Source: Candidatus Kryptobacter tengchongensis (lineage in GTDB: Bacteria; Bacteroidota; Ignavibacteria; Kryptoniales; Kryptoniaceae). From it: 64,000 nt of DNA. The notes beneath the pieces were generated by a model. The model had not been told where the DNA came from, made no database searches, and saw only the letters and a list, made by a program, of their open reading frames with translations. Position 1 is the stretch's first letter. Every line of letters begins with the position of its first letter. The translations under genes were made by a program, and so were the position numbers. The stretch lies in assembly GCA_001485605.1 (NCBI GenBank), contig FAON01000011.1, positions 62,001 to 126,000 of the forward strand. Direction: 5' to 3'. Below are positions 42,759-49,579 of the stretch, in pieces.

Positions 42759-43601
42759 TTATCTAAACAATGCAAGCACTCCTTGTGGAGCAGCGTTAGC
42801 TTGAGCAAGTTGAGCGGTTGCTGTTTGCTGGAGTATCAAAAGTTTGGCGACCTCAACTTGTTCTTTGGCAATATCGGCATCAAAGATTCTGCTTGCTGCT
42901 GCTTCCGTGTTTGTCATTGAAACAATCAAATTCGCCTCTTTCACATCAAGACGATTGACAAGTGAACCAACATATTGCAACTGTTGGGTTACTGTTCTGA
43001 TAGCGTTATCAACTGTTGTGATAAACGAACTTGTCAAATCGCTTGTTACAACTGCTGAAGATTTAATAAGCGTGCTATCAACAGTTATATCAAATTTAAC
43101 TGTAAGCGTATCACCGCTATCGCTACCAATTTGGAAGGCTCTTCCAGTAACCCAAGCACCACCGCCAGCACCATTAAGCAATTGCATGCCGTTGAACTTA
43201 GTTTGTCTAACAATATCATCAATCTCACTCATATAATCATTGATCTGCGTCGCGATTGCCTGCAATTCATCATTGCTTAAACCACCGTTTACAGCCCTTG
43301 TCACTTGCTCTTTAATTGAGACAAGCAAATCGTTGATCTTTTGCAATCCGCCTTCCGCTATTGAGAGAACATTTTTGGCATCACCGACATTGTTGATTGC
43401 CTGAGCAAGCCCACGACTTCTTGCTTGTAATTTCTTGGCAATCGTGTAACCAGAAGGGTCATCGGAAACAGAATTGATTTTTTTGCCTGTCGCAAGGCGG
43501 AGTTGATGAACGCCGAGCTCACGATTGATGTCGTTAAGAGCATTATAAGCGTTCATCGCTGCGATGTTGGTGTTGATGCGTGTTCCCTGTGAGAATGCCA
43601 T
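42759..43601 (-). CDS. fliC: Flagellin
   Basis: The filament subunit, 280 residues. The chosen ATG gives MAFSQGTRINTNIAAMNAYNAL, the canonical start, with AAGGAGG upstream; an upstream in-frame ATG (43670) would lie inside the leader. The D0/D1 N-terminal part (ELGVHQLRLATGKKINSVSDDPSGYTIAKKLQARSRGL) and C-terminal part (EAASRIFDADIAKEQVEVAKLLILQQTATAQLAQANAAPQGVLALFR in order) are well conserved. The central variable domain is short (about residues 150-200), with several Ser/Thr that could carry sugars. Transcribed from its own sigma-28 promoter. Confidence 0.98.
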   Translation of the reverse strand: MAFSQGTRINTNIAAMNAYNALNDINRELGVHQLRLATGKKINSVSDDPSGYTIAKKLQARSRGLAQAINNVGDAKNVLSIAEGGLQKINDLLVSIKEQVTRAVNGGLSNDELQAIATQINDYMSEIDDIVRQTKFNGMQLLNGAGGGAWVTGRAFQIGSDSGDTLTVKFDITVDSTLIKSSAVVTSDLTSSFITTVDNAIRTVTQQLQYVGSLVNRLDVKEANLIVSMTNTEAAASRIFDADIAKEQVEVAKLLILQQTATAQLAQANAAPQGVLALFR

Positions 43602-43639
43602 GGCTAATAACCTCCTTGTTTTTGTTTGTTTTAAATTTC

Positions 43640-48087: not shown

Positions 48088-49579
48088 AAACGAAGAAAGT
48101 TTTCTCCCCGGATGTCTTGAAAGCGTAAAAGATGTCGTTGATGAAATAATACTCGTTGACACTGGTTCAACGGATAAAACAGTTGAAATTGCTCGCTCTT
48201 ATGGTGCAAAAGTCTTCTTCCTTGAATGGAAAAATGACTTTTCCATTGCGAGAAATGAATCAATAAAGCATGCAACTGGTGATTGGATCCTTGTGCTTGA
48301 CGCTGATGAAAGATTAAACCCGGGACAAAAAGAAAAAATCAGAAAATACCTCAATCTAAGCTTTGACGGTTTATATGTTAGGATTTTGAATACAGATAAA
48401 GATGGGAAAACCTCCATAGCAGAATACCCGAGATTATTCAGAAAGAAGAGCGGAGTTAAATTTGAGAGAAAAATTCACGAACAAATTTCACCTTCAATTT
48501 TAAAAGTTGGTGGGAAATTCGCGAAAACAGATATAACAATTACACACCTTGGGTATGCTCAAGATGATGAAACTATGCGAAAAAAATATGAACGAAATCT
48601 TCAAATTTTGCTTGAAGAATTTCAAGAAAATCCAAACGACGCATATACCTGCTATCATATCGGCATAACAAAAATTTTAATGCAAGAAAAAGAGGAAGGG
48701 ATTAAATTTTTGGAAAAAGCGATCTCAATACCTAAAGAAATCTCAAATCTTGGCGATTCTCTTCGGGCGCAAATATACAACATACTTGGAAGATACGAGA
48801 TACAAATAGGAAACATTTCGCAAGCGCTTGAATATTTTGTTAAATCCTCAAAACTTGCCCCAGTTCAAGTAAGTTCATATTATCAGGCTGGGCTTGTTTA
48901 TATGAGAAAATCAAACTTTACACTTGCGAAAAACTTTTTTGAAAAAGCGCTAAAAAACCTACATTCTGTTTTAAGAGGTAAAACACTTGACATCGCATTT
49001 GAAAACCTTTTTGAGCCAGAAGAAATCAACTTTAAACTGGGAATCTGCTACTTTAAAGAGGGAAATCTTAATAAAGTGAAAGAACATCTTCTCAAATTTA
49101 TATCAAGCGAACAACTTTACACAGAATTTATTGATTTTCTCGTTGAAGAATATAAAAACGGAAACAAAAATGCCATTCAACTTATAAGATATATCTCGGG
49201 GGTAAAACCATCTTTTTATATTTTCAAAGTTCTCTCAGGTATTTCACAGGTTGAGGGAGATCTGGAGATGGCTGTTAACAATTTGAAACTGGCGCTTCAA
49301 TTCAAAGATGATGATGAGATAAGATATAACCTTGGGGTATGTCTTGCTGGATTAAGTAAGTTTAATGAGGCGATTGATGTTCTGAAATGGTTTGGGACTC
49401 GCGAGGATTCACGCTTTTTTTATGATGCGATCAAGCTTCTTGCGCTTTTATATCTTGGTGCAGGTGAGTTTCAAAATGCTCTTTCATGCTACGAGCTGAT
49501 GCTTAAACATAACCCAACGGATGAGTTGATAAAGGCAAGGATAAATTCAATTGCCCACAAATTAACCATCCCAAGTTAG
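48056..49579 (+). CDS. GT2 glycosyltransferase with TPR repeats
   Basis: A 507-residue protein: a GT2 fold at the N terminus ([42 protein letters not shown], with the DXD motif in [10 protein letters not shown] near residue 82) and about seven TPR units from residue 190 to the end. It overlaps the preceding gene by 32 bp, so translation is coupled and both follow the same sigma-28 promoter. TPR-fused GT2 enzymes are known that modify surface or flagellar proteins. Likely a flagellin or filament-protein glycosyltransferase; the acceptor is inferred from context. Confidence 0.85.
   Translation: [507 protein letters not shown]

Follow-up and report, generated by a model that had tools for sequence, protein, structure and literature searches.

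A predicted flagellin glycosylation locus with back-to-back sigma-28 motifs, a constant GmaR-like transferase gene and an exchangeable multi-domain gene in Candidatus Kryptobacter tengchongensis

A flagellin gene and two divergent genes, GT-A and GT-B, of Candidatus Kryptobacter tengchongensis probably form a flagellin O-glycosylation locus that is run as a late flagellar operon, with GT-B as the constant starter enzyme and GT-A as its exchangeable partner. The locus lies in the window, i.e. the whole stretch of 64,000 nucleotides from contig FAON01000011.1 that was analysed, and the assignment is based on its sigma-28 motifs and their conservation, on gene order, domains and synteny, and on the exchange of GT-A among related genomes.

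Results

The gene fliC (42759-43601, minus strand, with its ATG at 43601) encodes a flagellin of 280 residues without large outer domains, which matches both Flagellin_N and Flagellin_C above cut-off. Divergent from it are GT-A (43765-48087, plus strand), coding for 1440 residues, and GT-B (48056-49579, plus strand), coding for 507 residues. The 3' end of the former and the 5' end of the latter share 32 bp, and their coordinates bear out the gene order given in a sequence-only reading of this DNA, with both genes facing away from flagellin. An overlap of about 30 bp is found again in the same-genus genomes wherever both genes occur, which fits translational coupling. GT-B consists of a GT2 domain (residues 5-121) and a TPR arm, and is GmaR-like. 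In GT-A, a Methyltransf_23 domain (83-227), a GT9 domain (380-514), a WbsX/GH99-like domain (591-934), TPRs and a GT2 domain (1154-1282) were recognised; the transferase domains ascribed to the two genes earlier are thus real, but the description of GT-A as a plain glycosyltransferase has to be given up.

Two sigma-28 motifs stand back to back between fliC and GT-A, both of them perfect and with 10 bp between the promoters. That of fliC (43677-43704, minus strand) reads TAAAG-N16-CCGATAA, i.e. TAAA-N16-TCCGATAA, and that of GT-A/GT-B (43715-43741, plus strand) reads TAAA-N15-TCCGATAA; the pair, with N16 on the minus and N15 on the plus strand as originally described, is present and far above chance. 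With 0.09 occurrences expected, TAAA-N15/16-NCCGATAA is present 4 times in the window, a count that none of 100 shuffles reaches, and TAAA-N15/16-TCCGATAA occurs 9 times in the whole 2.68-Mb genome versus once for the reversed control. Only the motifs of fliC and GT-A among these 9 directly precede a recognisable gene; another site (L002) precedes an unassigned ORF of 92 residues. Motif counts alone were rejected as a definition of the regulon, the looser TAAA-N15/17-CCGATAA yielding 22 sites, mostly intragenic, versus 12 for the reversed control. The window also encodes a sigma factor of the FliA family at 7247-8023 (minus strand; TIGR02479 above cut-off). The probable gene for the anti-sigma-28 factor, flgM (39965-40213, minus strand), is placed after the fliC-fliS-fliD genes and matches TIGR03824 weakly (E 0.0034, below cut-off); a sigma-28 motif 85 bp before it (40299-40326, minus strand) has counterparts in the same position in five relatives. 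A further perfect motif (4798-4824, minus strand) was seen inside a gene of 179 residues, 350 bp ahead of a gene for a flagellar rod protein.

All six same-genus genomes with a complete region (the contig of G005 ends just upstream of fliC) have kept both intergenic motifs intact, while the surrounding DNA drifts. Orthologues of GT-A, all divergent from fliC, are found in three of the six other same-genus genomes (G001, 84% identical; G002, 68%; G006, 64%), and these three, like the window's genome, have both motifs in perfect form amid bases that differ. G003 and G004 are devoid of GT-A; there the plus-strand motif abuts GT-B, 32-34 bp before its start codon. The comparison of this intergenic region across related genomes, named earlier as a check of the locus, therefore finds both motifs kept with GT-A in four species and without it in two. 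In genomes outside the genus, GT-B and fliC are in tandem, with GT-B reading toward fliC; the matching sigma-28 site, where found, precedes fliC and not GT-B, and no sigma-28 site of GT-B's own is recognisable. Sigma-28 control of a GT-B-type enzyme thus appears, from the sites compared, to be a feature of this genus, and timing by sigma-28 would be dispensable in general. The literature searched contained no description of a GmaR-like gene that diverges from fliC under sigma-28 control, which is weak evidence of absence.

The leader of fliC contains a hairpin with a CsrA-like site (43640-43659, minus strand) and an ANGGA-type loop. In seven species the loop has the sequence A[AT]GGA[AT], and across these the stem changes by compensating pairs, four of its seven pairs being changed on both sides; the four same-order genomes that were read each have a similar GGA-loop hairpin before fliC. 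CsrA (L028:8565-8804, minus strand) and FliW (L028:8820-9212, minus strand) are encoded side by side. Control of flagellin by CsrA-FliW is known from Bacillus, and judging from its sequence the hairpin looks like the same control extended to this class. No comparable hairpin was seen before GT-A, so that GT-A/GT-B would escape CsrA-type control. Another contig carries a third flagellin-like gene, coding for 425 residues (L027:7078-8355); it has neither flagellar genes nor a sigma-28 motif in its surroundings and no match in the same-genus genomes.

The best solved relative of GT-B is GmaR (residues 2-191, E 3.3e-32), followed by SunS. The succession of a GT2 domain and TPRs makes GT-B closest to GmaR, as a GmaR-like flagellin transferase should be, and the GT2 signature residues, including DADE, are retained. 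The full-length model of GT-B is of medium confidence (pLDDT 75.5, from two sequences), and only its GT core and TPR arm were used. Assignment of GT-B as a SunS peptide S-glycosyltransferase was rejected, its score of 101 bits comparing with a TIGR04195 cut-off of 350.

GT-B is found beside fliC in 6/6 same-genus genomes, and a homologue lies directly upstream of fliC in 11/11 same-order genomes that have fliC; in other families of the class, 20 flagellin loci were sampled, of which 9 have a homologue nearby and 11 have none. Transferase genes beside flagellin that are kept in relatives, as expected of a flagellin glycosylation locus, are thus found here, with GT-B, on the evidence of synteny, as the constant member. 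Nineteen genomes, which are a biased sample since they were partly picked for GT-B beside flagellin, gave 27 strong matches, nineteen of them beside fliC and eight at a second place. Three of these eight were read directly and are situated behind flgK-flgL-motAB-fliW-csrA and two response-regulator genes, four more have the same distance from flgL, and the remaining one belongs to G012. The only other matches above the limit in the nineteen genomes are GT2 proteins of ~270 residues. Second GT-B paralogues in same-order genomes are found at L245:7067-8587, L246:6606-8120 and L247:4570-6081. In two same-order loci (L190:9692-15648 and L191:2978-8915), two large genes of ~550 and ~1400 residues, regulator-like by eye, are positioned directly upstream of GT-B and fliC.

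GT-A has a different history. G001 and G003 are sisters, with a support of 98 in the FliC+FliD tree and 100 in the GT-B tree, and only G001 has GT-A. At fourfold-degenerate sites, the identity between G000 and G001 is 0.67 in GT-A (n=402), as compared with 0.48 in GT-B, 0.43 in fliD, 0.50 in fliC, 0.57 in alr and 0.45 in manC; the excess spans most of GT-A and falls in GT-B. Because this identity exceeds that of the neighbours and the sister G003 is without GT-A, the gene was most likely passed, as far as these sequences tell, between the G000 and G001 lineages after their split and more recently than the neighbour genes. Since support at the base of the within-genus tree is low, the argument concerns loss or transfer of GT-A around G001/G003 and not whether the gene is ancestral or gained. 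Fused in other ways, the modules of GT-A are also found next to flagellin genes in one Nitrospirae (L061) and one Bacteroidetes genome (L063), and Thauera encodes a giant WbsX protein near flagellin.

The only WbsX domain of the genome is that of GT-A. A model built from 70 sequences (pLDDT 90.5) has the GH99 endo-alpha-mannosidases as its closest solved folds (Foldseek E 4.9e-14, TM about 0.6), and both glutamates of the WbsX NEWxEG motif, aligned by profile to the NEWxEG of GH99, are invariant in the 70 sequences. The catalytic pair of GH99 consists of glutamates with the same spacing, E404/E407 in the human enzyme (PMC11025385). The WbsX domain is hence predicted to have a GH99-like fold with the catalytic glutamate pair kept, by which GT-A would be no ordinary glycosyltransferase. 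A hydrophobic N-terminal segment is missing from 74 of 75 WbsX-containing proteins, so that this domain is probably cytoplasmic; GH99 enzymes, by contrast, are secreted or Golgi proteins, from which the WbsX proteins differ in lacking an export signal, in being encoded in biosynthetic loci and in sharing about 15% identity with them. The family name of this widespread domain implies a transferase, whereas its predicted fold implies a glycosidase. The O-antigen defects reported for phage-resistant Burkholderia wbsX mutants (PMC13391952) fit a glycan-building role, and the flagellar loci that were read have WbsX in fusion with GT domains. It may be suggested, tentatively and with the structural model as a guide, that WbsX is a cytoplasmic sugar-transferring enzyme on a GH99 barrel which uses its glutamate pair for synthesis and not for cleavage, as one station of a single-chain flagellin assembly line. 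WbsX alone was discarded as a sign of flagellin modification, a full flagellin gene being nearby in only 5 of 80 related loci.

Discussion

In model bacteria, the FliA-polymerase is freed upon exit of FlgM. In the mechanism proposed here, completion of the hook and release of FliA by FlgM would let the FliA-polymerase fire fliC leftwards and GT-A/GT-B rightwards. The TPR arm of GT-B would hold cytoplasmic flagellin while its GT2 domain places the first sugar on Ser/Thr, and GT-A, where present, would use its GT9, GT2, methyltransferase and GH99-like WbsX modules to extend and cap this first sugar. The use of FliA, flagellin as the acceptor, the identity and order of the sugars and the O-linkage are what we infer from the arrangement. 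GT-A would be a cassette slotted between the promoter and GT-B, and since it is exchangeable in that slot, the type of filament glycan could be changed by the gain or loss of a single gene. Such a layout, with a GmaR-like primer tied to flagellin, a swappable cassette and an untouched promoter, would be a simple one for the evolution of filament glycans. The sequence-only reading, in which the two enzymes glycosylate flagellin with timing locked to filament assembly, gains from the conserved motifs, the synteny and the likeness to GmaR as regards the promoters and the link to flagellin; it needs qualifying in that the two genes are no indivisible pair, GT-A being dispensable and mobile, that one domain of GT-A has a predicted glycosidase fold, and that sigma-28 control of the enzyme appears confined to this genus.

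GmaR of Listeria is a GT2-TPR protein that transfers GlcNAc onto flagellin and also binds the repressor MogR, for which it acts as anti-repressor (PMC3150276, PMC9638930). GT-B has the same GT2 domain followed by TPRs, but it is 130 residues shorter and is encoded in a sigma-28 operon that diverges from fliC, whereas GmaR ends in a region that binds MogR and operates under this repressor. FlmG of Caulobacter likewise unites TPR and transferase parts in one flagellin-modifying enzyme, its TPR part binding flagellin (PMC7591256), but there the TPRs are N-terminal, the transferase domain is of the GT-B superfamily and the sugar is pseudaminic acid, whereas here GT2 comes first and the TPRs second. 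The peptide S-glycosyltransferases SunS/ThuS are the second-best solved relatives and the best fold match of GT-B; they differ in that its TPR arm is much longer and no bacteriocin genes are nearby. Flagellin glycosylation islands of Enterobacteriaceae, Geobacillus and Aeromonas share with the present locus variable transferase/methyltransferase genes beside flagellin and signs of horizontal exchange (PMC4875605, PMC5109656), but the locus described here has two genes, one constant and one exchangeable, under a conserved sigma-28 promoter of their own, and the operon is free of sugar-biosynthesis genes. According to the literature searched, flagellin glycosylation of this type would be extended to a class without earlier study of it.

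LPS and O-antigen clusters often contain GT9 and WbsX domains, wbsX mutants are reported to have an altered O-antigen (PMC13391952) and the majority of the WbsX loci found are not near flagellin, all of which would suit enzymes that make a surface polysaccharide linked to motility, or that act on LPS instead of flagellin, sigma-28 merely timing the coat with motility. We regard this as improbable, given that the constant part, GT-B, is GmaR-like and keeps its place beside flagellin across families, and that the GT-A/GT-B operon has no polymerase, flippase or polyprenyl-phosphate transferase gene. Even less probable is a target of GT-B other than mainly FliC, such as a hook-associated, FlgL-type or second flagellin-like protein: the second paralogue behind flgK-flgL-motAB-fliW-csrA in same-order genomes speaks for it, but within the genus the single full-length copy lies beside fliC, and this position recurs across families. 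The least credible reading, to which we give very little weight, takes GT-B mainly as a regulator of flagellar genes with a secondary transferase activity, after the manner of GmaR acting through MogR. The GT2-TPR layout is indeed that of the bifunctional GmaR (PMC3150276), but the GT2 signature residues are kept, and a search of five genomes for a MogR-type domain, run without a positive control, found none.

Flagellin O-glycosylation by GT-B, with GT-A where present, is accordingly preferred, and the pseudaminic/legionaminic route to its sugar was set aside: no Maf-type (PF01973) protein was found in five genomes, the responding controls being archaeal only, and matches to the NeuB family were weak with partial coverage of the model (48-56 bits), perhaps reflecting a DAHP-synthase-like paralogue. 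Behind the flagellar genes of the window lies a gene resembling that of mannose-1-phosphate guanylyltransferase (37494-38588, minus strand), which has the same position in G001, G003 and G004; GDP-mannose from this source could be a donor.
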